Below, piece by piece: positions 13,595 to 31,362 of a stretch of 33,239 bases of DNA; within the stretch, counting starts at the first letter, position 1; the number at the start of each line of letters is the position of its first letter. The position numbers were made by a program, and so were the translations under genes. This stretch comes from a virus, in IMG/VR virus record IMGVR_UViG_3300008106_000048, positions 1 to 33,239 of that record. One strand, 5' to 3'. The notes beneath the pieces were generated by a model. The model was not told the DNA's origin and made no database searches. It saw only the letters and a list, made by a program, of their open reading frames with translations.

Positions 13595-13624
13595 TTTCCA
13601 CTTTAGCCGTTTAACCCTTCTTTT

Positions 13625-13649
13625 AGTCCCAAAAGAGGGGCTTTTTTTG
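13625..13649 (+). terminator. Rho-independent terminator after the kinase
   Basis: AGTCCC and GGGGCT pair around AAAAGA, followed by seven Ts. Confidence 0.75.
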
Positions 13650-13670
13650 TTGTTTTTCGCTGTACTCAAA

Positions 13671-13860
13671 AAACTGTACTACCCCTCTAAAAATCAATAA
13701 AACTCAATCTTATTAAGGGTTTTAACATTTTTGACTTTAAAAAACACCATTTAAAAATCAATAAAATTCAGTCATAGCATAGCTTAGACCTGTTTGTACT
13801 ATGTAGTAGGGGGGATAACTTTATTTTTTTTATCTACTACACTTTTAATCATCGCAGTTT
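13671..13860 (+). repeat. IR1 left arm (190 bp)
   Basis: This segment is repeated in inverted orientation at 14364-14553 with few differences. Landmarks are two AATCAATAAAA elements, AAGGGTTTTA-type and AACACCATTT segments, then TAGCTTAGACCTGTTTGTAC, TATGTAGTAGGGGGG and ATAACTTTATTTTTTTTAT. The same core, more diverged, occurs in the IR2 arms at 29083 and 30062. There is no gene here. Confidence 0.9.
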
Positions 13861-13930
13861 AAAAACTCTCATACTTTTTTGCCTCTCTCCCTTACCCCAC
13901 CCCCCAAAAAAAATATTTTTCCACTACCCC

Positions 13931-13960
13931 TTGACATTTTGTTTATACCCATGCTATGCT
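13931..13960 (+). promoter_or_regulatory. Promoter inside IR1
   Basis: TTGACA (13931-13936), an 18-bp spacer and TATGCT (13955-13960), overlapping a CTATG...CATAG palindrome (about 13954-13970). No ORF follows, so it may make an untranslated RNA. Confidence 0.6.
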
Positions 13961-13999
13961 ATATACATAGCGAAAAAAAAAAAAATAGAATGGGGGATA

Positions 14000-14031
14000 G
14001 GATACTAGATTACTTTAATTCTAGGGTATTC
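14000..14031 (+). ncRNA. Stem-loop downstream of the IR1 promoter
   Basis: GGATACTAGA and TCTAGGGTATTC pair around an AT-rich loop about 40 bp after the -10 box. A stem-loop beginning with the related GGATACGAGA occurs in the same place in IR2. Confidence 0.45.
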
Positions 14032-14363
14032 AAAAATCAACCTACCAAAAATTAAATACATATTTTAAATATTTAGCCCACATTTGCTCATTTACCCATT
14101 TTTAACCCCTTAGACCATTACAAATTCGTTTAATAGTAAAAGTATCACGACCCGCTCTGAAGTGTGGTAAAAGGCTGTTTATTATTGTCTGTAGTGTATG
14201 TCCACCTTAAAGTGGAACAATGCTAAAAGAAAAAAGCCACTATACGGAAAAGTCTAAAACCCGCCCTGTTAAAGCAAAAAAAAAAAAAAACAGACTCACC
14301 TTATTAGGACTTCCGAATGCTTTAATTTGCTCATTCTATATAGTTTATGTTTTTTTTGTACCT

Positions 14364-14553
14364 AAACTGCGATGATTAAAGGCGTAGTAGATAAAAAAAA
14401 AATAAAGTTATCCCCCCTACTACATAGTACAAACAGGTCTAAGCTATACTATGACTGGGCTTTATTGATTTTAAAATGGTGTTTTTTAAAGTAAAAACGC
14501 TAAAACCCTTGATATGATTGAGTTTTATTGATTTTGGTTAAGTAGTACAGTTT
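14364..14553 (-). repeat. IR1 right arm (190 bp)
   Basis: Reverse complement of 13671-13860 with scattered substitutions and one-base indels in homopolymers. The inner ends (AAACTGCGATGATTAAA) and the outer ends (GTAGTACAGTTT) are both sharply defined. Confidence 0.9.
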
Positions 14554-14679
14554 TACGCCTAAATTGATTTTTCATTTTCAAAAAAAAAATTTAGGACAAA
14601 AAGGAGGCACTTTCTTTTTTAGCCTAAAAGAGGGGTAGGGGTATCACCTGCATAAATTTTACTTTTTGTCAAGTCCTAT

Positions 14680-14761
14680 TGTGACACTTTTTAAACTGGC
14701 ACATTGGGACTTGACATTTTTACCTTTTTATGGTAGGTGTGCCAATTTATAAACTGGCACA
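14680..14761. repeat. Palindrome ladder a, two 24-bp sites
   Basis: Sites at 14680-14703 (TGTGACA form) and 14738-14761 (TGTGCCA form) are 58 bp apart, with a TTGACA between them. The consensus is TGTGnCA-N10-TGnCACA. Confidence 0.85.
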
Positions 14762-14776
14762 TTTCCTATTGACATT

Positions 14777-15052
14777 TTACGCTTTTCTTGCTAGAGATTC
14801 TCGGTAAAGCTCTTCACTCAATATCCAAAAATGAGCATTAGGTAAACCGAAAGCATTCTCCAATTTGCAAGCAATACTATCAGTAATCTCGGTTTCACTT
14901 GCCAGCAGTCGAAAGGCTTCCTTTCTTGACATCTCCATCCGATTAGCGAATATTCGTAAGGGTATTCCTCTGTCTCTCATGATGTAGTCAATGATTTCTC
15001 CAGGGGGCGAAAACCAATCTGATGTGTATTCGTTCTCAATTGTGTTAGTCAT
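14777..15052 (-). CDS. HigA-like XRE-family HTH protein
   Basis: The 91-aa protein has the HigA antitoxin layout. A PPGEIIDYIMRDRGIPL segment (about residues 16-32) leads into a helix-turn-helix (IFANRMEMSRKEAFRLLAS), then the antitoxin-type SIACKLENAFGLPNAHFW. Such proteins repress their own promoter and usually neutralise a HigB RNase. No HigB-like gene is adjacent, so this may be a solitary regulator, and it is a candidate binder of the palindromes. It has its own promoter at 15089-15117 and a GGAGTTCC ribosome site. A paralogue lies at 16394-16714. The last codons and the downstream DNA are shared with the KTSC gene's end, a sign of recombination. Confidence 0.75.
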   Translation of the reverse strand: MTNTIENEYTSDWFSPPGEIIDYIMRDRGIPLRIFANRMEMSRKEAFRLLASETEITDSIACKLENAFGLPNAHFWILSEELYRESLARKA

Positions 15053-15088
15053 AGATTGTGGAACTCCTTTGTTTTTCTTTATATTACT

Positions 15089-15117
15089 ATTATGTCATCT
15101 TTTTTTAGATTTGTCTA
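15089..15117 (-). promoter_or_regulatory. Cassette promoter for 14777-15052
   Basis: TAGACA, 17 bp, CATAAT on the minus strand. A palindrome site lies 7 bp upstream of the -35 box. Confidence 0.8.
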
Positions 15118-15124
15118 TGCCATA

Positions 15125-15344
15125 TGTGACACTTTCTAAACTGGCGCTGTGACACTTTATGAACTGGCACATTTCCTATTGACATTTTTACTTTTTTGTG
15201 GTAGATGTGACACTTTATGAACTGGCACATTTCCTATTGACATTTTTACTTTTTTGTGGTAGATGTGACACTTTATAAACTGGCACATTACCTATTGACA
15301 TTTTTACTTTTTGTGGTAGATGTGCCAATTACTAAACTGGCACA
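15125..15344. repeat. Palindrome ladder b, five sites
   Basis: Sites start at 15125 (partial right end), 15148, 15206, 15264 and 15321. The last four are 57-58 bp apart, and each is followed by T-rich DNA with TTGACA 7 bp away. Together with the promoter at 15089 this fills the 327-bp gap between genes. Confidence 0.9.
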
Positions 15345-15379
15345 TTTCCTATTGACTCTTTAGTAGTTTGCCGTCTTCA

Positions 15380-16135
15380 CTAAAAACGGTATTCACGATA
15401 TAAGTTTTCAAATTGTGCTGAGTTTTGTGTGATTGTATATCTCAAGAAATCTCGACGCAGAAAGACAATCAATCCTAGATTAGATTGCTTAATTTCTGTT
15501 AATTTATTCGGTAAATGATCGATCAAAGCTTTCAAGGCTTTTCGTTGAAGGTTATCGTTATCATTGGCGACATTAGGAAAAGCATCTTCTAATCCATCAA
15601 TTAAAAATATAATCTTCGAGTTTTTTTGTTTAAGGTATTCATGCAGTTTATTTAGTTGATAATTTTCCTGATTATACCCTAAAACTCTCGAAAATTCTTT
15701 GACCCAAAATTTTGCCCAATCTACCTCGTTCCAATCTTGATTAGATAGAGACTGCGTTATTCTGTCTTTAAAATCCGATATGGAAAATTGACAATTATGA
15801 TTGAGTGTATTATTTACATTTAGCCGTGCTTGTTCAAGAATATTTTTGGACTTATCATTTAAATTTTGTGATTGGAGTAAAGGAAATATTAAACCCAGAT
15901 TTTCTCCGGAATTTTCTTGATTTTTAGGATCAACTTTATTTAAAAAATTTCCCCAAGACTGTAGGCGAGATAGCTGAATATAATTAAAGGTTTTTCCCGC
16001 ATCTTTAGCACCAATTGAGATAACTACCGGTAGTTTATCTTGAAAATTACTAGCCATGTTTTTTAATAGCTGTTCATAACCGACAGCTAATAAGTCAGAG
16101 GATTTAACTTCAATCAGGAAGGTGTCGTAACTCAT
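15380..16135 (-). CDS. Chimeric gene: KTSC-like N-terminus fused to a P-loop ATPase fragment
   Basis: The first 24 residues (MSYDTFLIEVKSSDLLAVGY) copy the start of the KTSC protein at 17243-17491. The rest is unrelated to KTSC. It has a Walker A (ISIGAKDAGKTFNYIQL, about residue 40), a long helical insert, and a Walker B (KIIFLIDGLEDAF, about residue 174), followed by LGLIVFLRRDFLRY, as in STAND/KAP-like ATPases. The 251-aa protein stops shortly afterwards, so it probably represents only the front of a larger cellular ATPase. It uses the standard cassette promoter and GGAACTCC-type leader. The chimera suggests capture of a host gene fragment behind an existing promoter and start codon. Function is unclear. 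Confidence 0.6.
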   Translation of the reverse strand: MSYDTFLIEVKSSDLLAVGYEQLLKNMASNFQDKLPVVISIGAKDAGKTFNYIQLSRLQSWGNFLNKVDPKNQENSGENLGLIFPLLQSQNLNDKSKNILEQARLNVNNTLNHNCQFSISDFKDRITQSLSNQDWNEVDWAKFWVKEFSRVLGYNQENYQLNKLHEYLKQKNSKIIFLIDGLEDAFPNVANDNDNLQRKALKALIDHLPNKLTEIKQSNLGLIVFLRRDFLRYTITQNSAQFENLYREYRF

Positions 16136-16166
16136 GCGGAACTCCTTTGTTTTTCTTTATATTACT

Positions 16167-16195
16167 ATTATGTCATCTTCTTTTAGAATTGTCTA
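16167..16195 (-). promoter_or_regulatory. Cassette promoter for 15380-16135
   Basis: TAGACA, 17 bp, CATAAT on the minus strand, with a palindrome 7 bp upstream. Confidence 0.8.
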
Positions 16196-16202
16196 TACCG
16201 TA

Positions 16203-16347
16203 TGTGACACTTTCTAAACTGGCATAATTTGACTTGACATTTTGACCTTTTTGTGGTAGATGTGACTCTTTTTAAACTGGTTCATTACTTCCTGCATAAA
16301 CTTTGCTTTTTGTTAAGTCCTATTGTGCCAATTAATAAACTGGCACA
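16203..16347. repeat. Palindrome ladder c, three sites
   Basis: Sites at 16203-16226, 16261-16284 (weaker right half, GGTTCA) and 16324-16347 (TGTGCCA form). The first two are 58 bp apart. Confidence 0.85.
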
Positions 16348-16393
16348 TCTGGACTTGACATTTACGCTTTTTTTGTTACTTTTAGCACTTGTA

Positions 16394-16714
16394 CTACTGT
16401 ACAGTCGTATCTGTTTCGGATAGTACGATTGAACTATTGTTCCCTAGATTCTGCATTACATTGTTTTGATTTGCTAGAGATTCTCGGTAAAGTCTTTCAC
16501 GCTCTTTCCAAAAATGAGCAGTAGGTAAGCCGAAAGCATACTGCAATTTGCAAGCAATACGACCTGTAATCTCAGTTTCACTTGCCAGCAGTCGAAAGGC
16601 TTCCTTTCTTGACATTTCCATCCGATTAGCAAATATTCGTAAGGGTATTCCTCTCTCTTTCAAGATGTCGGAAATGGTTTCTCCAGGGGGTGTGTTCTCA
16701 ATTGTGTTAGTCAT
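16394..16714 (-). CDS. HigA-like HTH protein with a foreign C-terminal tail
   Basis: This is a paralogue of 14777-15052. The segment GIPLRIFANRMEMSRKEAFR and the following LLASETEIT are identical, with small changes elsewhere. The N-terminus is shorter (a deletion before PPGE). The last ~24 residues (NVMQNLGNNSSIVLSETDTT) are encoded by DNA homologous to the 3' end of the KTSC gene at 17243 but read in another frame. The gene is therefore a recombinant between a HigA-like cassette and a KTSC cassette. The DNA-binding part is intact. It has its own promoter at 16751-16779. No toxin partner is seen. Confidence 0.75.
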   Translation of the reverse strand: MTNTIENTPPGETISDILKERGIPLRIFANRMEMSRKEAFRLLASETEITGRIACKLQYAFGLPTAHFWKERERLYRESLANQNNVMQNLGNNSSIVLSETDTTVQ

Positions 16715-16750
16715 AGATTGTGGAACTCCTTTGTTTTTCTTTATATTACT

Positions 16751-16779
16751 ATTATGTCATCTTTTTTTAGATTTGTCTA
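16751..16779 (-). promoter_or_regulatory. Cassette promoter for 16394-16714
   Basis: TAGACA, 17 bp, CATAAT on the minus strand, practically identical to the promoter at 15089. Confidence 0.8.
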
Positions 16780-16958
16780 TGCCATATGTGACACTTTCTA
16801 AACTGGCTCATGTATAAGTATTCTTTGCGTACCGTTGCAGGACTTTGATTTTCAACTTCACATTCTACTTTTTTCTGGTTAGGTATCGTAGCCATAAATA
16901 AAAGTCCGATAATTAATACTGAAAATAATACTGAAATTATTAGGTCGATAGTTTTCAT
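16767..16958 (-). CDS. Small membrane protein, 63 aa, C-terminus running into the repeat
   Basis: MKTIDLIISVLFSVLIIGLL gives one clear N-terminal membrane helix, followed by a short polar tail. The final ~14 residues (MSQFRKCHIWHRQI) are translated from the palindrome and promoter repeat of the next cassette, so the original 3' end has probably been lost by recombination at the repeat. The gene overlaps the -35 region of the downstream cassette promoter. Its ribosome site (GGAGTTCC) and promoter at 16990 are standard for this block. Confidence 0.6.
   Translation of the reverse strand: MKTIDLIISVLFSVLIIGLLFMATIPNQKKVECEVENQSPATVRKEYLYMSQFRKCHIWHRQI
16787..16810. repeat. Palindrome site, single
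   Basis: TGTGACA half, N10, TGGCTCA half. It lies upstream of the promoter at 16751 and inside the 3' end of the membrane-protein gene. Confidence 0.75.
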
Positions 16959-16989
16959 ATGGAACTCCTGTGTTTTTCTCTATATAACT

Positions 16990-17018
16990 ATAATGTCATC
17001 TTTTTTTAGATTTGTCTA
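16990..17018 (-). promoter_or_regulatory. Cassette promoter for 16767-16958
   Basis: TAGACA, 17 bp, CATTAT on the minus strand, with a palindrome 7 bp upstream. Confidence 0.75.
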
Positions 17019-17025
17019 TACCGTA

Positions 17026-17228
17026 TGTGACACTTTCTAAACTGGCATAATTGGACTTGACATTTTGACTTTTTTGTGGTAGCTATGACACTTTATGAAC
17101 TGGTACATTTTCACCTGCATTGACTTTACTCTCTGTCAAGTCCTATTGTGACACTTTCTAAACTGGCATAATTGGACTTGACATTTTTACTTTTTTGTGG
17201 TAGCTGTGCCAATTAATAAACTGGCACA
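17026..17228. repeat. Palindrome ladder d, four sites
   Basis: Sites start at 17026, 17084 (degenerate, TATGACA/TGGTACA), 17147 and 17205. Spacings are 58, 63 and 58 bp. Confidence 0.85.
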
Positions 17229-17242
17229 TTACCTATTGACAT

Positions 17243-17491
17243 TTACGCTTTTCTTGCTACTTTTAACTCTTGTACTAGAGTACAATCGTATTTGTTACGA
17301 ATAGTACGATTGAACTCTCGTCCTATAGATTCTGCATTACAGAGATTTTGATACACCTGAATTGGTACTCCTGTATATTTGTACTCACTTCCAGATTTAA
17401 ATACTATTCTTAATGTTTCGCTAATTGGCTCATAACCTACAAACATTAAGACAGAGGATTCAACTTCAAACAGGGGGATGTCGTAAATCAT
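17243..17491 (-). CDS. KTSC-domain protein
   Basis: The 82-aa protein is almost entirely a KTSC domain: V-E-S-S near residue 9, then VGYEPISETLRIVFKSG, EYKYTGVPIQVYQNL, and NAESIGREFNRTIRNKYDC. The conserved G-Y, F-x-S-G, Y-x-Y-x-x-V-P and A-x-S-x-G-x-x-F elements are all present. The domain is found alone or next to nucleic-acid enzymes in bacteria and phages; its activity is not firmly known. This copy is the intact parent of the fragments at 15380-16135 (5' part) and 16394-16714 (3' part). The promoter is at 17523 and the ribosome site is GGAGTTCC. Confidence 0.85.
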   Translation of the reverse strand: MIYDIPLFEVESSVLMFVGYEPISETLRIVFKSGSEYKYTGVPIQVYQNLCNAESIGREFNRTIRNKYDCTLVQELKVARKA

Positions 17492-17522
17492 TTGGAACTC
17501 CTGTGTTTTTCTTTATATTACT

Positions 17523-17551
17523 ATTATGTCATCTTTTTTTAGAAATGTCTA
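17523..17551 (-). promoter_or_regulatory. Cassette promoter for 17243-17491
   Basis: TAGACA, 17 bp, CATAAT on the minus strand, with a palindrome 7 bp upstream. Confidence 0.8.
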
Positions 17552-17558
17552 TACCCTA

Positions 17559-17875
17559 TGTGACACTTTCTAAACTGGCACATTACCTATTGACATTTTT
17601 ACTTTTTGTGGTAGATGTGCCAATTACTAAACTGGCACATTACCTATTGACATTTTGACCTTTTTATGATAGCTGTGACACTTTCTAAACTGGCACATTT
17701 CCTATTGACAGTTTGACTTTTTTGTTGTAGCTGTGACACTTTATGAACTGGCACATTTCCACCTGCATTGACTTTACTCTTTGTTAAGTCCTATTGTGCC
17801 AATTTATAAACTGGCACATTACCTATTGACATTTTTACCTTTTGTGATAGATGTGCCAATTAATAAACTGGCACA
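17559..17875. repeat. Palindrome ladder e, six sites
   Basis: Sites start at 17559, 17616, 17674, 17732, 17795 and 17852, at spacings of 57-58 bp with one of 63. They alternate TGTGACA and TGTGCCA left halves and nearly all end TGGCACA. T-rich DNA with TTGACA lies between most of them. There is no gene in this 398-bp stretch. Confidence 0.9.
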
Positions 17876-17889
17876 TTACCTATAGACAT

Positions 17890-18033
17890 TTAGCTAAACA
17901 ATAGTTTTTTTAACCATTTAGCTTTTTTTTTCCAATTATTTGTGGGCATAAAATTATAGATCACTACTATTTCTTTACCCCGTTTAGCCACAATATGTTT
18001 AGCAGATAATTTGATTCTGAGTGGGTTAATCAT
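17890..18033 (-). CDS. Small basic protein, 47 aa
   Basis: ATG at 18033 follows the block's standard leader (GGAGTTTC) and a promoter at 18065-18093. This supports the gene despite its size. The product is basic, with a strand-prone first half (RIKLSAKHIVAKRGKEIVVI) and a Lys/Trp-rich end (NNWKKKAKWLKKLLF). It could bind nucleic acid or membrane, but the family is unknown. It is wedged between ladders e and f. Confidence 0.6.
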   Translation of the reverse strand: MINPLRIKLSAKHIVAKRGKEIVVIYNFMPTNNWKKKAKWLKKLLFS

Positions 18034-18064
18034 TTGAAACTCCTGTGTTTTTCTTTATATTACT

Positions 18065-18093
18065 ATTATGCCATCTTTTTTTAGAAACGTCTA
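18065..18093 (-). promoter_or_regulatory. Cassette promoter for 17890-18033
   Basis: TAGACG, 17 bp, CATAAT on the minus strand, with a palindrome 7 bp upstream. Confidence 0.75.
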
Positions 18094-18100
18094 TACCCTT

Positions 18101-18240
18101 TGTGACACTTTCTAAACTGGCATAATTTGACTTGACATTTTTACTTTTTTGTGGTAGATGTGACAATTAATAAACTGGCACAATCGGTATTGACATTTTT
18201 ACTTTTTTGTGGTAGATGTGCCAATTTATAAACTGGCACA
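18101..18240. repeat. Palindrome ladder f, three sites
   Basis: Sites start at 18101, 18159 and 18217, exactly 58 bp apart. Confidence 0.9.
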
Positions 18241-18259
18241 TCTGGACTTGACATTTAGC

Positions 18260-20143: not shown

Positions 20144-20172
20144 ATTATGCCACTGTTCTATTGAATTGTCAA
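20144..20172 (-). promoter_or_regulatory. Promoter for 19763-20110
   Basis: TTGACA, 17 bp, CATAAT on the minus strand. Confidence 0.85.
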
Positions 20173-20189
20173 GGGGTTTTTTGGTGTTT

Positions 20190-20213
20190 TAGGACAGTTT
20201 ATAAACTGGCACA
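20190..20213. repeat. Palindrome site, single
   Basis: A GGACAG left half and an AAACTGGCACA right half, the same as at 21276. It is followed 7 bp later by TTGACT on the plus strand. Confidence 0.75.
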
Positions 20214-20232
20214 TAGCCCCTTGACTTTTTTC

Positions 20233-20646
20233 TCAACTCTGTTGAATTTTTTCTATCAATTGTTGTTTTGTCATACTTCCATAACCTTTAATTTTTAATT
20301 CTCTGGCCATCACTTTTAATTGTCTGATTGATACCACTTCTGATTCTACCAGTTCCTGTTTAATCGCCACTTGAGATATTGACTCTATTTTAGACACTAA
20401 ATTTAAGTCTTCCTCTAGATTTTCTAAATTAGGAATTTGGGTATCAATTTGTGTATCGGTCGTGTCCATATTATGCAAGTTTTGAGGATAAAATATTCGG
20501 CTATCCACCCCCTCTAAAATGCCCCAAAATGCGTGCAAAACACCCGATATTATCATCATTACGGTAAAGAATACAACGGTAGCGTTAAATGCCCAATATG
20601 CCCCAATTGCGATATAATCTAAAATCATTGTGTCTAGTGTAGTCAT
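20233..20646 (-). CDS. Membrane protein with a C-terminal SAP/Rho-N-like motif, 137 aa
   Basis: The start at 20646 is chosen because CGGAGTT precedes it and the promoter (20679-20707) lies inside any longer frame. An N-terminal segment (residues ~11-45) contains one or two membrane helices (YIAIGAYWAFNATVVFFTVM, IISGVLHAFWGIL). A linker rich in Asp, Thr and Glu follows. The last ~32 residues (SIRQLKVMARELKIKGYGSM, TKQQLIEKIQ) match the SAP / Rho N-terminal helix-extended-helix fold that binds nucleic acid. This would tether DNA or RNA to a membrane, possibly a replication or segregation anchor. The domain reading is by eye. Confidence 0.65.
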   Translation of the reverse strand: MTTLDTMILDYIAIGAYWAFNATVVFFTVMMIISGVLHAFWGILEGVDSRIFYPQNLHNMDTTDTQIDTQIPNLENLEEDLNLVSKIESISQVAIKQELVESEVVSIRQLKVMARELKIKGYGSMTKQQLIEKIQQS

Positions 20647-20678
20647 GGTTGGTAACTCCGGTTTTCGTTTATGTTTAT

Positions 20679-20707
20679 AGTATGTCATCTTTTTCAAAAA
20701 ATGTCAA
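20679..20707 (-). promoter_or_regulatory. Promoter for 20233-20646
   Basis: TTGACA, 17 bp, CATACT on the minus strand. No palindrome is seen upstream. Confidence 0.75.
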
Positions 20708-20890
20708 TACTTTTAGTTTTGTCTTTTTTTATCTGTTTTAGGTATTGTCATAAGTTTATCTAATATTATTTTTGCTTATAATTTTGTCCTATCGTCATAA
20801 GATTACCTAATATAACTTTTGATTATCCTTGTAATAAGTTTTTATTATGTGCTAACCTCATGCACACACCTGCAATTGTTATTTTAGATT

Positions 20891-20925
20891 AAAGCAGTGA
20901 TTCTTACCACTGCTTTAGCTTTTTT
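20891..20925. terminator. Bidirectional terminator
   Basis: AAAGCAGTG and CACTGCTTT pair around 8 bases, with a T-run on the plus side. It lies just beyond the stop of 20932-21177. Confidence 0.75.
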
Positions 20926-20931
20926 GGTCTG

Positions 20932-21177
20932 TTAATCTAGTTCAGATTCTAGTTCAGATTCTATTTCTGATGAATCTTTGACATCCCAGCCCTTTTTAAA
21001 AACTACATACTCTTTCATTAATGCCTCACTAAAAATATCATGTAAGTAGTCCTTAACGTTGTCCTCATTTTTACCAGTTATTCGGATGTTTATTTCGTCC
21101 TCAAAACTAGGTGTTATTACTACTTGATGCTCTGTCCATTGTCTTATGATTGGATGCCAATACGCTGTGTCTATCAC
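20932..21177 (-). CDS. Acidic protein, 81 aa, GTG start
   Basis: The product is acidic at its C-terminus (KDSSEIESELESELD, itself a small repeat of SELE units). It has an alpha/beta-looking core (HQVVITPSFEDEINIRITGK, then NVKDYLHDIFSEALMKEYVV). The start is GTG 21177, with no clear SD sequence, although the promoter at 21231-21259 is strong. No family is recognised. It is divergent from the RNR small subunit gene across 279 bp that hold both promoters and one palindrome. Confidence 0.6.
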   Translation of the reverse strand: MIDTAYWHPIIRQWTEHQVVITPSFEDEINIRITGKNEDNVKDYLHDIFSEALMKEYVVFKKGWDVKDSSEIESELESELD

Positions 21178-21230
21178 TATTCTTTTGTGAGTTGATTTTA
21201 GGGATATAATGCTTTTTTGTTTATGTCTCT

Positions 21231-21259
21231 ATTATGTAACTTATCTCTTGTAATGTCAA
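21231..21259 (-). promoter_or_regulatory. Promoter for 20932-21177
   Basis: TTGACA, 17 bp, CATAAT on the minus strand. It is back to back with the plus-strand promoter at 21307. Confidence 0.85.
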
Positions 21260-21275
21260 GGGGTTTTTGGTGTTT

Positions 21276-21299
21276 TGGGACAGTTTATAAACTGGCACA
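21276..21299. repeat. Palindrome site between divergent promoters
   Basis: A GGACAG / CTGGCACA form located between the promoters of 20932-21177 and the RNR small subunit, 7 bp from the plus-strand -35 box. Confidence 0.75.
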
Positions 21300-21306
21300 T
21301 ATCCGC

Positions 21307-21336
21307 TTGACTTTTTGGCTTTTTAGTGCATATACT
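21307..21336 (+). promoter_or_regulatory. Promoter of the RNR small subunit, distal
   Basis: TTGACT (21307-21312), an 18-bp spacer and TATACT (21331-21336). A second, extended -10 type promoter, TGTTATAAT (21372-21380), lies 44 bp closer to the gene. Confidence 0.7.
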
Positions 21337-21456
21337 ACCATGATTTTTTTATTTTTAAAAATTTTTTATTGTGTTATAATGCAGGGGTAATCTTTCCTTC
21401 AAGGGGTTCACTCAATCCTTTAATACAAGGAAAAATTTTTTACTGGTAAAAACTTT

Positions 21457-22227
21457 ATGTCTGATCAATTAATTTTTCAACGTCTATTAAACGCTAAACG
21501 AGATTGGGCAGTTATGCCTATTCAAAACGGTCACTGTGTTCGGGGTGCGGAAAAAACTATCCAAAAAGCATTAGAGGCTCGACACTTAGAGTTACCCGTT
21601 GGTCAATGGATTAAAGAGTGTGCTAGTCGAGAGAGAAAATGGTTATCTGATTACGGTATTTTATTATTAGCCTCTAATTTTAAAGACGAAAAAAAACATG
21701 ACTCTCAGTTAAATTATGCCTATTCAAATATCTCTTTAGCTAATCTTACTGATAAACTACAAATTGAGTCTGAATCTCGTTCTTTAGTCTCTAAATGGTT
21801 AAAAATGGGAGAGAAATATCACCCCGTTTTAGTTACTTGGGTCGCCGAACAATCTATCTTTTTTCCGGTCTTAACTTTATACCGCCGTTTAGGTGGTACT
21901 CAGTTAGCTATGGTTTCCGCAGAGATTAGCAGGGACGAGACAATTCACGCTAGAACTAACGGCACTATCGCTAAAATGTTAGGACTTTCTATTCCCCCTG
22001 ACTTGGATGACCTTAGACAGGAAACCATCGAGTGGCTTGTTTCAGACCTTGATGATTCTGGGATTGAAGGTAAATACGGTCAATCTAAAAATTATATTGA
22101 CCAGTCTTTTCAATTACTTCATCAAGGTTCTTACGCTAAGTTTAAAGATACCTCCTTCGCTGTTTTGCCCGGTTTCTTTGAAACACATCGTAGTCATTTA
22201 CCTAAATATGGTAAGGTAGCTAACTAA
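21457..22227 (+). CDS. nrdB: Ribonucleotide reductase small (beta) subunit
   Basis: This subunit makes the radical used by the large subunit. The 256-aa protein has ferritin-like diiron motifs in order: E78-K-K-H81, E131 (WVAEQSIFF) and E161-T-I-H164 within EISRDETIHARTNG, which closely matches R2 R-D-E-A-L-H. A first acidic ligand is probably E45. The residue at the canonical radical-Tyr place, four after the first His, is Leu (a Tyr is two further), so the metal or radical chemistry may differ. At 256 aa it is shorter than cellular R2 (~320-375). It is the only plus-strand gene in this region, with a 100-nt leader and no clear SD sequence. Its partner is at 10832-12364. Confidence 0.82.
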   Translation: MSDQLIFQRLLNAKRDWAVMPIQNGHCVRGAEKTIQKALEARHLELPVGQWIKECASRERKWLSDYGILLLASNFKDEKKHDSQLNYAYSNISLANLTDKLQIESESRSLVSKWLKMGEKYHPVLVTWVAEQSIFFPVLTLYRRLGGTQLAMVSAEISRDETIHARTNGTIAKMLGLSIPPDLDDLRQETIEWLVSDLDDSGIEGKYGQSKNYIDQSFQLLHQGSYAKFKDTSFAVLPGFFETHRSHLPKYGKVAN

Positions 22228-22241
22228 CAATTTACATCTAA

Positions 22242-22276
22242 AAATAGGGTAACTTTTTTTAGGCTACCCTATTTCT
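22242..22276. terminator. Convergent bidirectional terminator
   Basis: AATAGGGTA and TACCCTATT pair, with T/A-runs on both strands. It separates the RNR small subunit from the convergent gene 22280-22711. Confidence 0.8.
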
Positions 22277-22279
22277 TTG

Positions 22280-22711
22280 TCAAGGTGTTTTTCTTACCTC
22301 GAACATCTCATTTATTGCATCAAATATTTGAGGTAATACTATCTGATTGATTCTGTCAACCTCTGCTTTATTTTTGATTACCTCTGCTAACGGGTTTACC
22401 GTTACATGAGAACCACCTCTACCTAATATTTCCGCTACTTCCTTTAATCCATAAGCTGTTTTCGCTAGTTCGTAAAACTTCCATAGGTTATCCCCTCTCA
22501 ATTTTACGTTTAAAGTGTAGTCTCTTTCTAGAGCCTCTTGCCAGTTGATATTCCCATAGTTGCTCAAGTGGTAATGTTCCCCTTTTGCCCTTAAATACCC
22601 GAAAGACCAGTACCAATCACAATCCCATGTCGGGGCGGCTATATATATTAGTTTTCCGTCTTTTTTTCGTTTTCCCAGATAGTGTATTTCTGTCCATTTT
22701 GTGCTATACAT
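22280..22711 (-). CDS. Phage-type hypothetical protein with WDCDWYWSFGY motif, 143 aa
   Basis: The N-terminal half contains KDGKLIYIAAPTWDCDWYWS and FGYLRAKGEHYHL, a pattern I associate with uncharacterised phage proteins (W-D-C-x-W-Y-W-x-F-G-Y). The C-terminal half is helical (WKFYELAKTAYGLKEVAEIL, then EVIKNKAEVDRINQIVLPQI). The Cys/His/Trp-rich front could bind a metal or ligand, but no activity is known. It has its own promoter at 22744-22772. Confidence 0.6.
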   Translation of the reverse strand: MYSTKWTEIHYLGKRKKDGKLIYIAAPTWDCDWYWSFGYLRAKGEHYHLSNYGNINWQEALERDYTLNVKLRGDNLWKFYELAKTAYGLKEVAEILGRGGSHVTVNPLAEVIKNKAEVDRINQIVLPQIFDAINEMFEVRKTP

Positions 22712-22743
22712 TGTCTTTTTCCTCTTTGTTTGCTTATGTACCC

Positions 22744-22772
22744 ATTATGCTATCTTTTCAGTCCTGTGTCAA
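22744..22772 (-). promoter_or_regulatory. Promoter for 22280-22711
   Basis: TTGACA, 17 bp, CATAAT on the minus strand. No palindrome lies beside this one. Confidence 0.8.
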
Positions 22773-22950
22773 TACTTTTCGTATTTTATTTTCTTATCCC
22801 TATCCGCCCTTGCTATAACTTTACCTTATATAATTTTTTCTTATCTTTGTTATTAGTTTTGCTTATATACAAACCTGATACACATACCTGCATTATTCAT
22901 TCTTTATTACACAACTCCTACATATTTCTGCCTTGTTTGGTATAGACAAG

Positions 22951-22979
22951 AAAAGGTGAGTACATTAACTCACCCTTTT
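22951..22979. terminator. Terminator after 22987-23568
   Basis: AAAAGGTGAGT and AACTCACCCTTTT pair around ACATT. It would work from either strand. Confidence 0.75.
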
Positions 22980-22986
22980 GTTTATG

Positions 22987-23568
22987 TTAGTTTTCCTCAG
23001 TTCGGCTTAAAATGTCCTCTAGTCTTTTCAGTAGCAATTCCTTCTCAGACTCGCTAAAATTAAAACTAATACTAAAATCGTCTAGATTCGCAAAATCGTT
23101 AGCAAAATCCTCAATTAACTCACCTAACTCATCACTGGTTAATACACACTTATTATCCAGACTCGTTACTCGTTCATCATCTTTTAACTCAGGTATTGCT
23201 ATTAACAATTCCTTAAAACACTCAATATATCCCCAATTTGACCAATACTCATACCACTGCTCATATTCTAAGTCAGACAAGTCTTGTTCATCTAGTATTG
23301 AGTAGTCTTCCAAGCTTTTCTTTTTCTCATCTATTGCTTCTAATAGCAAAGAATCTTTATGAATCATTAAAGCTTTAAATTCCATGCAACCCCCAAAACT
23401 AAACTCTTCTAAGTCTGGAAATAATCGATGCCATACTCGATAATTACTCATATCTACTGAATCACTCTGCTCTGATTCAGCCGCTACTACATAGAAGTCC
23501 GTTAAATCCATCCCTAAATAATTTGGTGCTTCTGTCCATTTTTTAAGATATTGCGGTTGATAGTTCAT
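22987..23568 (-). CDS. Acidic hypothetical protein, 193 aa
   Basis: The largest of the small-gene block apart from the ATPase chimera. It is very acidic throughout, with helix-rich stretches (SLLLEAIDEKKKSLEDYSIL, then DLSDLEYEQWYEYWSNWGYI) and an acidic C-terminal pair of helices (ELGELIEDFANDFANL, SESEKELLLKRLEDIL). Four Cys residues are scattered, so no zinc site is evident. There is no membrane segment. Such acidic, aromatic-rich phage proteins can mimic DNA or bind host enzymes; this is only a possibility. The promoter is at 23600 and the ribosome site is GGGAGT. Confidence 0.7.
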   Translation of the reverse strand: MNYQPQYLKKWTEAPNYLGMDLTDFYVVAAESEQSDSVDMSNYRVWHRLFPDLEEFSFGGCMEFKALMIHKDSLLLEAIDEKKKSLEDYSILDEQDLSDLEYEQWYEYWSNWGYIECFKELLIAIPELKDDERVTSLDNKCVLTSDELGELIEDFANDFANLDDFSISFNFSESEKELLLKRLEDILSRTEEN

Positions 23569-23599
23569 GATGTACTCCCGTTTTTTTGCTTATGTACCT

Positions 23600-23628
23600 A
23601 TTATGTCATTTATCTCTTGGATTGTCAA
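23600..23628 (-). promoter_or_regulatory. Promoter for 22987-23568
   Basis: TTGACA, 17 bp, CATAAT on the minus strand. Confidence 0.85.
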
Positions 23629-23645
23629 GGGGTTTTTTGGTAGGT

Positions 23646-23669
23646 TGTGACAATTTATAAACTGTCACA
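23646..23669. repeat. Palindrome site with compensatory change
   Basis: TGTGACA at the left and TGTCACA at the right. Both half-sites have changed together relative to TGTGCCA/TGGCACA, which supports a symmetric binding site or an RNA stem. Confidence 0.85.
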
Positions 23670-23718
23670 TATACTCTTGACTTTTTGGCTTTTTTTACTG
23701 ATAACTGATAACTCCTAC

Positions 23719-23910
23719 TTAATCTTCTATATCCCAACTATTTTCGAGTAATCCCAGATTATCGCTAACTATCTCTATCAATTGGTTCCCGTCATTTTCT
23801 ATGCTGATTTGAGTGTATAAATCGTCAAACATTGACGACGCTTCTTTTCTGTTTTTTGCCTTAACCGTGACCTCAATTGTGAGGTTTAAACTCCCTGTAT
23901 ATTCCTTCAT
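23719..23910 (-). CDS. Small acidic protein, 63 aa
   Basis: A short alpha/beta protein: a strand (GSLNLTIEVTVKA), a helix (NRKEASSMFDDLYTQI), a strand, and an acidic end (ENSWDIED). The pattern strand-helix-strand with A-K-N-R-K-E-A resembles small phage proteins that are otherwise uncharacterised. It is the last gene of a probable seven-gene operon that starts at the promoter 25752. TAGGAGT precedes the ATG. Heptamer repeats separate it from the next gene upstream. Confidence 0.65.
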   Translation of the reverse strand: MKEYTGSLNLTIEVTVKAKNRKEASSMFDDLYTQISIENDGNQLIEIVSDNLGLLENSWDIED

Positions 23911-23933
23911 TTTTTTACTCCTATTATGTGTTA

Positions 23934-23979
23934 ATTACTGATAACTGATAACTGATAACTGATAACTGATAACTGATTA
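23934..23979. repeat. ACTGATA heptamer tandem repeat
   Basis: Six consecutive ACTGATA-like units (reverse TATCAGT) lie between two genes, with shorter runs near 23696-23711, 24331-24348, 24587-24602 and 24746-24768. Heptamer arrays of this kind are common in cyanobacterial intergenic DNA. Confidence 0.8.
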
Positions 23980-23980
23980 A

Positions 23981-24304
23981 TTAAAAGTCCTTAATAATTA
24001 CACCACCCTCAAATTGAATTACGGTCGTCCGATCCTCCAAATATTTAAGTGCCTCCGCTTCTATCTCATCCTCATCCTCATCATCGGGGGGAATAAAATC
24101 ATAATGTTCCGCCGCCTCTAGGACGCTATCATATTCTGAAAAATCACACCGCAAAGCGACTCTATCAAATTTGATAGGCTTATCACTATCCTCTAAGTTT
24201 TCTAGGTACTCAATTAAAGCTGTAGCACCCTCCCATGACCAACCAGCACTATGATCATATTTCAGTAATTTAATAGCTTCATCGGTGCTTAATTTTTGGT
24301 ACAT
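23981..24304 (-). CDS. Acidic hypothetical protein, 107 aa
   Basis: Starts MYQKLSTDEAIKLLKYD, with a helical first half including SWEGATALIEYLENLEDSDK. The middle reads RVALRCDFSEYDSVLEAAEHYDF, then an acidic D-D-E-D-E-D-E-I-E linker, and finally RTTVIQFEGGVIIKDF. The last segment (a strand, GG, a strand) looks like the end of a small alpha/beta fold. Proteins with an F-x-E-Y-x-S-x-x-E-A-A centre occur in phages without known function. TAGGAGT ribosome site. Part of the 25722-23719 operon. Confidence 0.65.
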   Translation of the reverse strand: MYQKLSTDEAIKLLKYDHSAGWSWEGATALIEYLENLEDSDKPIKFDRVALRCDFSEYDSVLEAAEHYDFIPPDDEDEDEIEAEALKYLEDRTTVIQFEGGVIIKDF

Positions 24305-24356
24305 TTTTCTACTCCTAAATGGTTAATGTTTACCGATAACTGATAACTGGAACTGA

Positions 24357-24560
24357 TTAAAAATAAGGCTCGATCAAAACTTCTAAATGTTTCTCGTAGC
24401 TAGGGAAAACTTCATAGTTAGGATTGCCATTTTCCCATAATTCCTTAAGGGTATCGACTTGTTTTAAGAAGATTTCAGCATCCTCACCCTGTAGTAAAAT
24501 GTCGGTTTCCCCATTGGTCAATTTCACTGCATAGCCTAGATCAAAAAAGGTAAAGTTCAT
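24357..24560 (-). CDS. Small acidic protein, 67 aa
   Basis: MNFTFFDLGYAVKLTNGETD gives two strands, followed by the helix-rich ILLQGEDAEIFLKQVDTLKE and a final EKHLEVLIEPYF. It has no membrane segment or Cys. TAGGAGT precedes the ATG by 10 bases. It belongs to the same operon, flanked on both sides by short ACTGATA repeats. Unrecognised. Confidence 0.65.
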   Translation of the reverse strand: MNFTFFDLGYAVKLTNGETDILLQGEDAEIFLKQVDTLKELWENGNPNYEVFPSYEKHLEVLIEPYF

Positions 24561-24608
24561 CTTTTTGGTACTCCTAAATAATGGCTACTGATAACTGATA
24601 CCTGGTCA

Positions 24609-24710
24609 TTAATCCTCTATCTCCCAATCGGCTGTGTCGATATGAGTATCCCAATCAATGAGTTCAGGTATCTCATCCTCTATGTCATACCTGTTTAACT
24701 CTATGTCCAT
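24609..24710 (-). CDS. Tiny acidic ORF, 33 aa, possible paralogue fragment
   Basis: The first residues (MDIELNRYDIEDE) resemble the family A segment IELNKYDIGELEN of 26278-26670, and the end (DTADWEIED) resembles the end of 23719-23910. It may be a recombinant remnant of two block genes rather than an active gene. There is no SD sequence. Confidence 0.35.
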   Translation of the reverse strand: MDIELNRYDIEDEIPELIDWDTHIDTADWEIED

Positions 24711-24767
24711 ATAGCTTAAACTGATAAGCGGGTAGATATTTTTTTACTGATAACTGATACCTGATAA

Positions 24768-25064
24768 TTAATGCTTCACAACTTTCTCAACATCCACATC
24801 ATACCACGAAAAAAGGAGCGTATAAGTCCTTGAAATAGAATCAAAGACATAAGCATCTATTCCGATTTTTCGATCATCTGGCATCCAAGCCTTTAATGTT
24901 TTCCCCGTTGATTTTAGGTGAGAAATTACCTGCTTATCGGTCAACTCAGCTAAGTCAAAGCTAATCCGTGTGTTGTCAGTTGTTTCGTCGCACGGAATAA
25001 GTTTTCCGTCCTTATCCCTTACCTTAACCAAAAAGCTGTAATTTCTTTTGTTGTCCTGTGTCAT
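24768..25064 (-). CDS. Hypothetical protein, 98 aa
   Basis: MTQDNKRNYSFLVKVRDKDG and later RISFDLAELTDKQVISHLKS, WMPDDRKIGIDAYVFDSISR and LLFSWYDVDVEK indicate a mainly beta protein. It has no Cys cluster or membrane segment. AGGAGG 5 bases before the ATG is the best ribosome site in this operon. It starts 10 bp after the stop of the preceding paralogue gene. Unrecognised. Confidence 0.65.
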   Translation of the reverse strand: MTQDNKRNYSFLVKVRDKDGKLIPCDETTDNTRISFDLAELTDKQVISHLKSTGKTLKAWMPDDRKIGIDAYVFDSISRTYTLLFSWYDVDVEKVVKH

Positions 25065-28723: not shown

Positions 28724-28781
28724 AACTTAAGGCAGAAAAAGATGCTAAACTATATTTAGTTATACCATAAGCTTACAGGAA

Positions 28782-28877
28782 ATGTCAAGTAAAAAGCCTA
28801 GAAATTATTATACTCTTAAAGTCCGTACCTCATTATCTGAATATGAAAGACTAAAAAAATACTGTGATAAGGTTTAA
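28782..28877 (+). pseudogene. Truncated ribbon-helix-helix-like ORF, 31 aa
   Basis: MSSKKPRNYYTLKVRTSLSE then YERLKKYCDKV looks like the strand and first helix of a ribbon-helix-helix repressor (V-R-T-S-L-S-E-Y-E-x-L-K-K-Y-C). It stops before helix 2, so it lacks half the DNA-binding domain. AGGA precedes the ATG. It may be a remnant. Confidence 0.4.
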
Positions 28878-29082
28878 TAGCCTAACCCAAATTAGCTCTG
28901 AAACACTTCTCAAGGGTAAAATGCCCAAAAATACGCAATTTTTTCGGTTTTGAGTTTTGAGTAAGATTAGCAATTAAGTTGCAATCACCAAAACCTTCAA
29001 GTCTAATCCTTAGCTAATTTCTTAATTTTAGCCTCAATAGGCTGTCTAGCTTTTTTTAGGTAGTTTAGTATTTCCGTCCTAT

Positions 29083-29353
29083 AGTGACACCTTAAGTGTA
29101 CTACTTTGTGAAAATCAATAAAACTCAATCATATCAAGGGTTTTGTAATTTTGAGACAGTTTAAATACTGTTTAAAAATCAATAAAACCTAATCACAGTA
29201 TAGGTTTAGTCTGTTTTGTACTATGTAGTGGGGGGGATAACTTTATTTTTTTTATGATAGGGGTATCTAATCAACACAGTGAAAAACCCCTAAAAAAAGC
29301 TTTTCGTACCTTTTGAGAGCATTTGGAAGCTACAAGTACCTTTGAGTACCTTT
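29083..29353 (+). repeat. IR2 left arm (about 271 bp)
   Basis: Nearly exact inverted copy of 30062-30334. Landmarks are GTGACACCT, two AATCAATAAAA elements, ATCAAGGGTTTT, AGACAGTTTAAATACTGTTT, GTTTTGTACTATGTAGTGGG, ATAACTTTATTTTTTTTAT, GATAGGGGTATCTAATCAAC and repeated GTACCTTT units. The central ~180 bp matches the IR1 arms. Confidence 0.9.
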
Positions 29354-29795
29354 CGTTTATAGCTTTAACAATTTGTCTTGTTTTAAAAAGCTTTGCAAGT
29401 TTTTGATGTTCGGGCTTTAAAGGACTGGGTGATAGGTATAATTACTTAGGTACAAATACTTAAACCACTGGCCTATCCTTTCTTGTGAGTAGTTCACTCG
29501 TTTTTAATCCTTTCACTCTCGGTCTTTCTCCAATTGCTACTTTTTAACACCTTAAAGACATTTTTACCCGTTTAGGCTATATTCACTCTCTTAATAAGAC
29601 TGTAAGGTTTACAGGGCTATTTTCTACCCCTTCCTCACACTCCAACCCCCTTAGACAATACCACGTTTACCCTATTAGGCCATGTTAAGCATATTAAAAC
29701 ATAAGGAAAAAAATGTTAAAAGTGTTGAAATCCTCTCTGAGAAAGGCTTTAGGGTGGGAAATCTTTTGGAAAAAGAAAAATCTTTAAAAAACCTC

Positions 29796-29824
29796 TTGAC
29801 ATTTCGCTCAAAACCGTATATGAT
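29796..29824 (+). promoter_or_regulatory. Promoter inside IR2
   Basis: TTGACA (29796-29801), a 17-bp spacer and TATGAT (29819-29824), close to consensus. It probably makes an untranslated RNA. Confidence 0.8.
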
Positions 29825-29837
29825 ATAAGCATGGATA

Positions 29838-29865
29838 CGAGACTAGGAATTACCCTAGGGTCTTG
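29838..29865 (+). ncRNA. Stem-loop at the start of the IR2 transcript
   Basis: CTAGG and CCTAG pair around AATTAC, with AGA/TCT outside and a two-base bulge. It is preceded by GGATACGAGA, like GGATACTAGA in IR1, so the two transcripts seem related. Confidence 0.5.
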
Positions 29866-30061
29866 AAACATTTAACCTAACAAAAAAAAAAAGATATAAT
29901 ATATATAGATATGCCAGATTTTTGTGTAAAAATTGGCTGAAACCTATGCAGTGTAAGGGTTTCACGGTTTAGTATAAGGAGTGGTCAAAGAACAAAACCT
30001 TGAAAACACATTAAAAAAGATGACCTACGCCAAAACACAACTAATTGGGAAACTAAATCTT

Positions 30062-30334
30062 CAAAGGTACTTAAAGGTACTCGTAGCTTCCAAATACTCT
30101 CAAAAGGTACTTGTTTCTCATTTTAGAGGAAAAACCACTGTGTTGATTAGATACCCCTATCATAAAAAAAAATAAAGTTATCCCCCCCACTACATAGTAC
30201 AAAACAGACTAAACCTATACTGTGATTAGGTTTTATTGATTTTTAAACAGTATTTAAACTGTCCCAAAAATTTAAAACCCTTGATATGACTGAATCTTAT
30301 TGATTTTTACTGAGTAGTACAGGTTAGGTGTCAC
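30062..30334 (-). repeat. IR2 right arm (about 273 bp)
   Basis: Reverse complement of 29083-29353 with few differences. It includes AAAGGTACTTAAAGGTACT at its inner end and GTAGTACAGG...AGGTGTCAC at its outer end. Confidence 0.9.
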
Positions 30335-30425
30335 ATTCTAAGTATCAAAAAGGGGTTCACACTTGTTCAGGAATAGATTTAAGGTTAACTATTAAAGGGG
30401 TTAACTGAGCGAATAAAGACAGATT

Positions 30426-30455
30426 TTGACAAATATAGTTATGTAAACTTAAAAT
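30426..30455 (+). promoter_or_regulatory. Promoter for 30486-30974
   Basis: TTGACA (30426-30431), an 18-bp spacer and TAAAAT (30450-30455), 30 bp before the gene. Confidence 0.65.
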
Positions 30456-30485
30456 TTAGGTGTCACAGTTGAGGTAATTTTTTCG

Positions 30486-30974
30486 ATGAAAGCAAAAACA
30501 AATAAAACCAAAGAAGAAATCAAAACACAGACAGAAACGTTGTTTGAAATCTATAAGCTAGGGGGAGTATCGGTTAGAAGTTTAGCTGAAAGATATGGAA
30601 TCCCGTGGACAACATTAAGAGACAGATTTAAAAATAGGTATGGAAAAATCTATACAAAGTATAGGGCAGATGAGGGTACGGTGCATGGAATCATAAAAGA
30701 ACACTTGACCAAATTAAAAGGAAAACAATTAAAGGAGGTTTCTGATTGGTATAAAGAACATAAACAGGAATTATTGTTAATGTCGTTAGATGACCAATTA
30801 AACCCAAATAGTACGAAAATATACACAGAACATCGTATGGATACGGAAACAAAAGCTCAATGCAGATTGCCGTATAGTTTAGGAGATTCCCCATATTTAA
30901 CTGGAAAATATGAACCAACAATTGATGGTGAAGAAATAGAAGGGGATTTGCCAATATCTTGGTGGACAGATTGA
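30486..30974 (+). CDS. HTH protein, possibly a terminase-small-subunit-like DNA-binding protein
   Basis: Residues 20-50 form a helix-turn-helix: ETLFEIYKLGGVSVRSLAER, then YGIPWTTLRDRFKNRY, the pattern of Psq/resolvase-type HTH and of small terminase subunits (S-x-R-x-L-A-x-x-Y-G-I-P-x-x-T-L). A helical middle follows (TVHGIIKEHLTKLKGKQLKE, VSDWYKEHKQELLLM), then an acidic, proline-containing tail. It could recognise a packaging or origin site such as the adjacent IR2, or act as a regulator. GAGG precedes ATG 30486. Its purine-rich coding strand contrasts with the pyrimidine-rich genes left of IR2. No large terminase lies next to it. Confidence 0.6.
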   Translation: MKAKTNKTKEEIKTQTETLFEIYKLGGVSVRSLAERYGIPWTTLRDRFKNRYGKIYTKYRADEGTVHGIIKEHLTKLKGKQLKEVSDWYKEHKQELLLMSLDDQLNPNSTKIYTEHRMDTETKAQCRLPYSLGDSPYLTGKYEPTIDGEEIEGDLPISWWTD

Positions 30975-31062: not shown

Positions 31063-31362
31063 ATGCCTTTAGTTTATACCCCCGCAGTCAAAGGGGGAGC
31101 AAATCCAGCCAGTGGTAGCTATCTACTTGACCCCCAATATGTAAATAGTGGTGTAGATATTCTCCGGGCAACCTATGGTTACAATATTAATGGTTCGGCA
31201 AATGCTGACCAATTATTGCAACGAGACGCTATTTTAGCTATTCTTGAATTTGCTCTTAAAGATACCGCTTTTGTAAATGCTATTCAGGCTGTTGCGGCTG
31301 GTGCTGGGGTCACTACTCCTGCTAGTTTTGTTAGCGCCTGTGTGACTAAACTTACAGCTTAG
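31063..31362 (+). CDS. Small Ala/Gly-rich protein, 99 aa, possibly structural
   Basis: The protein opens with PLVYTPAVKGGANPASGSYL and LDPQYVNSGVDILRATYGYN. It then turns into small-residue-rich helices (RDAILAILEFALKDTAFVNA, IQAVAAGAGVTTPASFVSA). The composition (Ala, Gly, Thr, Val, few charges) suits a virion or assembly component, but no family is recognised. T-ending codons return here after the purine-rich HTH gene. A strong terminator follows 20 bp after the stop. Confidence 0.6.
   Translation: MPLVYTPAVKGGANPASGSYLLDPQYVNSGVDILRATYGYNINGSANADQLLQRDAILAILEFALKDTAFVNAIQAVAAGAGVTTPASFVSACVTKLTA

Follow-up and report, generated by a model that had tools for sequence, protein, structure and literature searches.

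The window analysed here is a virus fragment of 33,239 nt from IMG/VR (record IMGVR_UViG_3300008106_000048). It is collinear, in reversed orientation, with the circular 92.6 kb genome of Microcystis phage Mic1 (MN013189), and is a fragment of a Mic1 relative, a virus of the bloom-forming cyanobacterium Microcystis. It carries two inverted-repeat loci, IR1 and IR2, each a pair of facing arms around a gap (Table 1). No ORF of at least 80 aa occurs in 13,595-14,776 (IR1) or in 28,724-30,485 (IR2); IR2 lies at a divergent gene boundary, and IR1 between convergent genes. The relatives compared include G004, a 96.8-kb sequence from locus L014 in which IR2 spans the contig ends.

The gene for an HTH DNA-binding protein, the homologue of Mic1 gp48, adjoins IR2 in L011-L014; in Mic1 itself, gp49 lies between gp48 and IR2. 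A structure prediction from a three-row alignment gave a mean pLDDT of 43.8 and no usable fold, and 11 other contigs, which are fragments, contained no match to the protein. On its sequence it could be a candidate origin (arm)-binding protein or a small terminase. Mic1 gp49 is TnpB-like and stands directly beside the IR2 arm (52573-53913); it is absent from that place in the window (30337-30391) and in G004. The product of window 31063-31362 is closely related to the Mic1 capsid cement protein, whose structure has been solved (6j3q).

Table 1. Features of the two loci and their relatives (window coordinates unless Mic1 is named)
Feature	Position	Strand	Basis or remarks
IR2 left arm (unit and GTACCTTT iterons)	29084..29353	+	
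IR2-type unit: TGTACTAC, two AAATCAATAAAA boxes 64 bp apart, TTTGTACTATGTAGTGGGGGGGATAACTTTATTTTTTTT, AATCAACACA	29094..29285	+	nhmmer, alignment
Three GTACCTTT iterons, left arm	29306, 29336, 29346 (29306..29353)	+	
Strongly conserved block upstream of IR2 promoter (TAGACAATACCACGTTTACCC...)	29652..29685		four-phage alignment
IR2 sigma70-like promoter, TTGACA-17-TATGAT	29796..29824	+	11/12; kept in Mic1 and G004, first hexamer one base off in L013
IR2 hairpin, 5' end of predicted RNA, GGATACGAGACTAG..CTAGGGTCTT	29833..29864	+	three compensatory pairs
IR2 AT-rich block, candidate DNA unwinding element	29882..29915		position common to all paired loci
Second IR2 stem-loop, GAAACC...GGTTTC	29939..29963	+	kept in IR2 loci of Mic1, G004 and L013
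IR2 right arm	30063..30334	-	
Three GTACCTTT iterons, right arm	30063, 30073, 30103 (30063..30110)	-	
Second IR2-type unit, facing the first	30135..30327	-	nhmmer
HTH (Psq-like) DNA-binding protein, Mic1 gp48 homologue	30486..30974	+	PF05225, E=3.7e-5, above its cut-off
IR1 left unit	13670..13862	+	nhmmer
IR1 promoter, TTGACA-18-TATGCT	13931..13960	+	
IR1 hairpin, GGATAGGATACTAG..CTAGGGTATT	13995..14030	+	
IR1 AT-rich block	14047..14076		
IR1 right unit	about 14361..14554	-	nhmmer
Mic1 unit, single	19.55 kb		
Mic1 units	22.0/22.6/22.8 kb		
Mic1 units, IR2	53.9/54.9/55.3 kb		
Mic1 units, IR1	72.26/72.45/73.1/73.3 kb		
Mic1 units	88.85/89.4 kb		

An earlier note on this DNA had described IR2 arms of about 272 bp, a core of some 180 bp shared with IR1, and four copies of it in two opposed pairs 15 kb apart. 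Each of these observations was borne out. The IR2 arms are opposed and 88.2% identical over 272 bp (2 gap openings, E=2.6e-98), the IR1 arms are 89.7% identical over 194 bp, and all four contain a common unit of ∼190 bp. As the note had also said, arms are more alike within a locus than between loci: aligned over the four arms, unit identity is 93.1% in IR2 and 90.6% in IR1, and 73-75% between the two. The suggestion that the arms of a locus are homogenised holds in part, given that the pairs of window IR2, window IR1, L044 and L042 each group by locus in a tree of the arms, whereas those of Mic1 are mixed across loci. Two Mic1 gaps at distant loci (22218-22585 and 89045-89426) are 96.9% identical in inverted orientation, which indicates recent exchange between loci as well.

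Besides the two AAATCAATAAAA boxes, the arms carry TACTATGTAGTA and a G-run that leads into a T-run. The units give little sign of a conserved RNA fold on either the plus strand (alifold −4.8, with 3 of 100 column shuffles equally good) or the minus strand (−2.0, with 14 of 100). With so weak a signal the arms resemble protein-binding DNA rather than RNA, and to judge by their sequence they look like putative DNA-binding sites.

By length, the gaps enclosed by these arms are either of the IR1 type (361-499 nt) or of the IR2 type (819-850 nt), and in every sequenced gap between paired units there is a single sigma70-like promoter, together with one hairpin RNA and an AT-rich block. A leader motif, GGATA[GC]GA[TG]AC, is present in all 21 different gap sequences, downstream of a TTGACA-like/TATGMT promoter and upstream of the AT-rich block; the first hexamer departs by a single base in the promoters of L052 and L013. 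The most AT-rich 50-nt windows of the IR2 locus, at 82% AT, start at 29860-29880. In the second IR2 stem-loop, L013 has a change at the last base of the 5' strand.

Each pair of arms in the window (2/2), Mic1 (4/4) and G004 (4/4) encloses a single copy of the hairpin motif, and these three sequences, of which the latter two are complete genomes, have no copy elsewhere; all 21 matches to it in IMG/VR lie at loci that also hold arms. Across the alignment, 94.6% of cells in the 12-pair stem are paired, as against 30-50% with slid partners. Three pairs covary (G-C/C-G, U-A/G-C and G-C/A-U), of which two split the same two subfamilies, IR2 and IR1, and so may represent one event. An invariant G.U pair in the stem is possible on the promoter strand only; thus the hairpin signal is strand-specific. 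A variant with an outer stem failed, the pairing string having been tested partly out of register. We found no tRNA and no Rfam match above the gathering score, and leader peptide coding was rejected because, read by eye, indels that distinguish the copies disrupt the frame.

The unit belongs to a family. Mic1 contains 13 copies, all between annotated genes, and G004 likewise contains 13. An exact scan for the unit core recovered 26 stretches in IMG/VR and none from 84,980 prokaryote genomes, and plasmids contained nothing that matched IR2; as far as such scans can tell, the family is phage-specific. Neighbouring units less than 2.5 kb apart are convergent in 25 cases, tandem in 12 and divergent in none, counts that include contigs that are near-duplicates of one phage. 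Promoter orientation is the same in Mic1 and G004 at 4/4 paired loci.

The block between IR1 and IR2 is the counterpart of the genes that Mic1 transcribes early, gp49/gp50-gp73 (PMC11237433), and has identical orientation and order in the window, Mic1 and the contigs G001, G002 and G004. Within the window it holds 26 copies of a 60-nt repeat (14660-18256 and 20170-23685), many of them 58 bp apart; in several, a TGTGCCA-N10-TGGCACA palindrome precedes TTGACA. From their sequence these look like an operator-promoter array of early genes, and the Mic1 paper notes a repeat akin to them. Two duplicated antitoxin-like HTH genes lie in the same block (14777-15052 and 16394-16714), one of them HigA-like below the curated cut-off, as does a homologue of the Mic1 "ParA" (15380-16135; 8.3-8.8 kb in Mic1), which resembles the Sll1717 P-loop ATPase family (below the model cut-off) and not ParA. 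The heptamer ACTGATA, common to Mic1 and the Microcystis host genome according to the Mic1 paper, is clustered at 23696-24784.

Mic1 encodes a gamma-type DNA polymerase (PMC7156551), and its homologue lies at 2731-6030 of the window. The gene is interrupted by an intron-like stretch (4285-5136) that contains an HNH-type ORF (4393-5064) and matches group I introns weakly (E=0.03, below gathering); at the matching site Mic1 has only a 298-bp intron. An RRXRR-domain ORF region at 1442-1811 is 86-87% identical to the Microcystis myophages LMM01 and MaMV-DC, which otherwise share little by megablast with the window's first 25 kb.

Several features set IR2 apart from its paralogues. Its units form a separate clade (support 100/99), and each of its arms carries three iterons; all six copies of GTACCTTT in the 33-kb window are within the IR2 arms, and IR1 and the other paired loci have the same core without them. 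Upstream of its promoter the IR2 gap is also longer by several hundred bases, which can be aligned between four phages.

Strand bias singles out the same locus. We computed cumulative GC skew for the window, Mic1 and G004, and in all three the minimum falls at IR2 or within ∼1.5 kb of it. In the window it is at 30,280, inside IR2. In Mic1, where IR2 occupies 53.9-55.5 kb, it is at 52.6 kb for all bases, 54,569 for noncoding sequence and 53,751 for third codon positions; in G004 it is at 964, near the IR2 at the contig ends. The skew reaches its maximum about half-way round both Mic1 and G004 (arc fractions of 0.53 and 0.49, respectively), far beyond permutation nulls. A two-arc fit places the G004 origin at −1.4 to 3.5 kb, with IR2 inside, and the Mic1 origin at 52.75 kb (95% interval 51.0-54.4), an interval that touches IR2 at its edge only. 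Between the two replichores of Mic1 the skew changes from +0.113 to −0.095 in plus-strand genes, from +0.052 to −0.123 in minus-strand genes and from +0.105 to −0.048 in noncoding sequence, and G004 shows the same pattern. A bias that is present in all three of these classes of sequence argues for replication, not transcription, as its cause. In Mic1 the other three paired loci have the same core but lie away from the skew extremes; possession of that core is thus not enough for a locus to be a primary origin. The hint in the earlier note that these loci might have replication activity is thus strengthened for IR2, insofar as a skew minimum can speak to it.

Our interpretation is that IR2 is probably the primary bidirectional (theta) replication origin of a Mic1-like Microcystis phage. 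An origin role is well supported by sequence: IR2 combines a strand switch that has an opposite terminus (the Mic1 fit being slightly offset) and is independent of gene strand with iterons and a candidate AT-rich unwinding element, and has a promoter directly upstream of that element, as in the T4-type layout. From this layout we infer that initiation at IR2 is primed by a transcript. A phage or host protein would bind the boxes that recur in the arms, RNA polymerase of the host would transcribe from the internal promoter, and the transcript would either stay paired within the AT-rich block, as an R-loop, or melt it. The resulting primer or entry site would then be used by the phage helicase, primase and gamma-type DNA polymerase, with forks leaving IR2 in both directions. 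IR1 and the other paired loci would be paralogues, at most secondary or accessory origins; alternatively, IR1-type loci may be titration sites for the arm-binding protein. We identified no initiator protein.

There are other possible explanations for these loci. One is that they are multicopy genes for a regulatory small RNA, with arms that control or insulate them, and that IR2 is near the origin only by virtue of its divergent gene boundary. The presence of a promoter and hairpin at all paired loci, including those away from the skew extremes, is what such genes would predict, and the convergent setting of IR1 suits them too. However, they do not account for the iterons and long conserved gap specific to IR2, for the AT-rich block after the hairpin at every locus, or for a skew switch that ignores gene strand, and we consider this explanation rather unlikely.

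We are more sceptical that the loci are centromeres or partition sites scattered along the genome, of the parS-like kind known from the plasmid-prophage N15, with the arms as binding sites in low-copy lysogeny. Mic1 was annotated with ParA and ParB and a plasmid-like state was proposed for it (PMC7156551), and several loci per genome would be in keeping with such sites, yet the window homologues of the annotated proteins have no ParA or ParB match in Pfam, PHROGs or NCBIfam, and the promoter, hairpin and skew are left unexplained. Such a role is very unlikely.

The earlier note had proposed that the 15-kb block might be inverted, amplified or mobilised with IR1 and IR2 as its brackets. The two loci do flank it, and the block is that of the Mic1 early genes; the flanking is incidental, however, and further loci exist, Mic1 having 13 units. 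The inverted arms are long enough for homologous recombination and, being homogenised, probably recombine. Against this, the orientation and order of the block and the orientation of the paired loci are conserved as described above, and no inverted or excised form of the block occurs among the records compared. A single orientation everywhere, together with the further loci, means that nothing points to inversion or mobilisation, and we regard the bracket as highly improbable.

Equally improbable is that IR2 is a pac site for headful packaging with gp48 as the small terminase subunit: headful packaging is indicated by TerL phylogeny (PMC7156551) and gp48 is a small HTH protein located beside IR2 and before the capsid genes, but there are further loci of the same type, and gp48 has no small-terminase similarity in Pfam, PHROGs or NCBIfam. 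Finally, arms around a non-coding gap in several copies per genome might recall a non-autonomous, MITE-like transposable element with long terminal inverted repeats, or the known insertion sequence that the earlier note had allowed for, an explanation that is hardly credible when syntenic positions and orientations are kept between phages, the gap has no ORF, no target-site duplication was seen, and the prokaryote genomes and plasmids scanned gave no match.

Returning to IR2 as an origin, its closest parallel is found in the T4 origins oriF and oriG, where a promoter is combined with a DNA unwinding element, a persistent transcript hybrid forms in that element, and there are several origins per genome (PMC4412123). 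The order of promoter and unwinding element and the occurrence of several such loci per genome are alike in the two. Unlike IR2, T4 uses middle-mode promoters, and an R-loop at IR2 is a proposal from layout. We know of no T4 origin with facing 190-bp arms or a conserved leader hairpin. Iteron-type theta origins of plasmids and phages similarly have short repeated boxes by an AT-rich segment at a skew switch, but here the boxes lie in two facing arms about 700-800 bp apart. Gammaherpesvirus lytic origins also contain repeats, an AT-rich element and an RNA promoter inside the origin, though their sequences and machinery are unrelated.

The gamma-type polymerase of Mic1-like phages has been proposed to share ancestry with the mitochondrial one, and the transcription-primed mitochondrial origin is like IR2 in its gamma-type polymerase, in a promoter-proximal structured transcript (predicted here) and in a G-run; the likeness is loose, because the G-run lies in the arms and not immediately downstream of the promoter. 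A gamma-polymerase phage with an internal-promoter transcript and a structured leader conserved across dispersed, arm-enclosed modules may be a multi-origin RNA-primed replicon that preserves ancestral mitochondrial replication logic, a speculation that we ourselves find doubtful.

A phage theta origin has been located experimentally by read-depth mapping in ICP1 (PMC7145576). In a text search, the Mic1 papers describe repeats and mention neither a replication origin nor these inverted repeats. What appears to be new here is a candidate phage origin with promoter and unwinding element in facing arms and with paralogous copies, a combination for which a limited literature search found no match. 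The origin reading would explain a conspicuous repeat family in Mic1-like genomes, and the unit and its locus would provide a defined marker of a phage family that occurs in blooms of freshwater cyanobacteria. A concrete candidate origin, in which a promoter precedes a conserved leader hairpin, would make transcript-primed initiation in gamma-polymerase phages directly testable.
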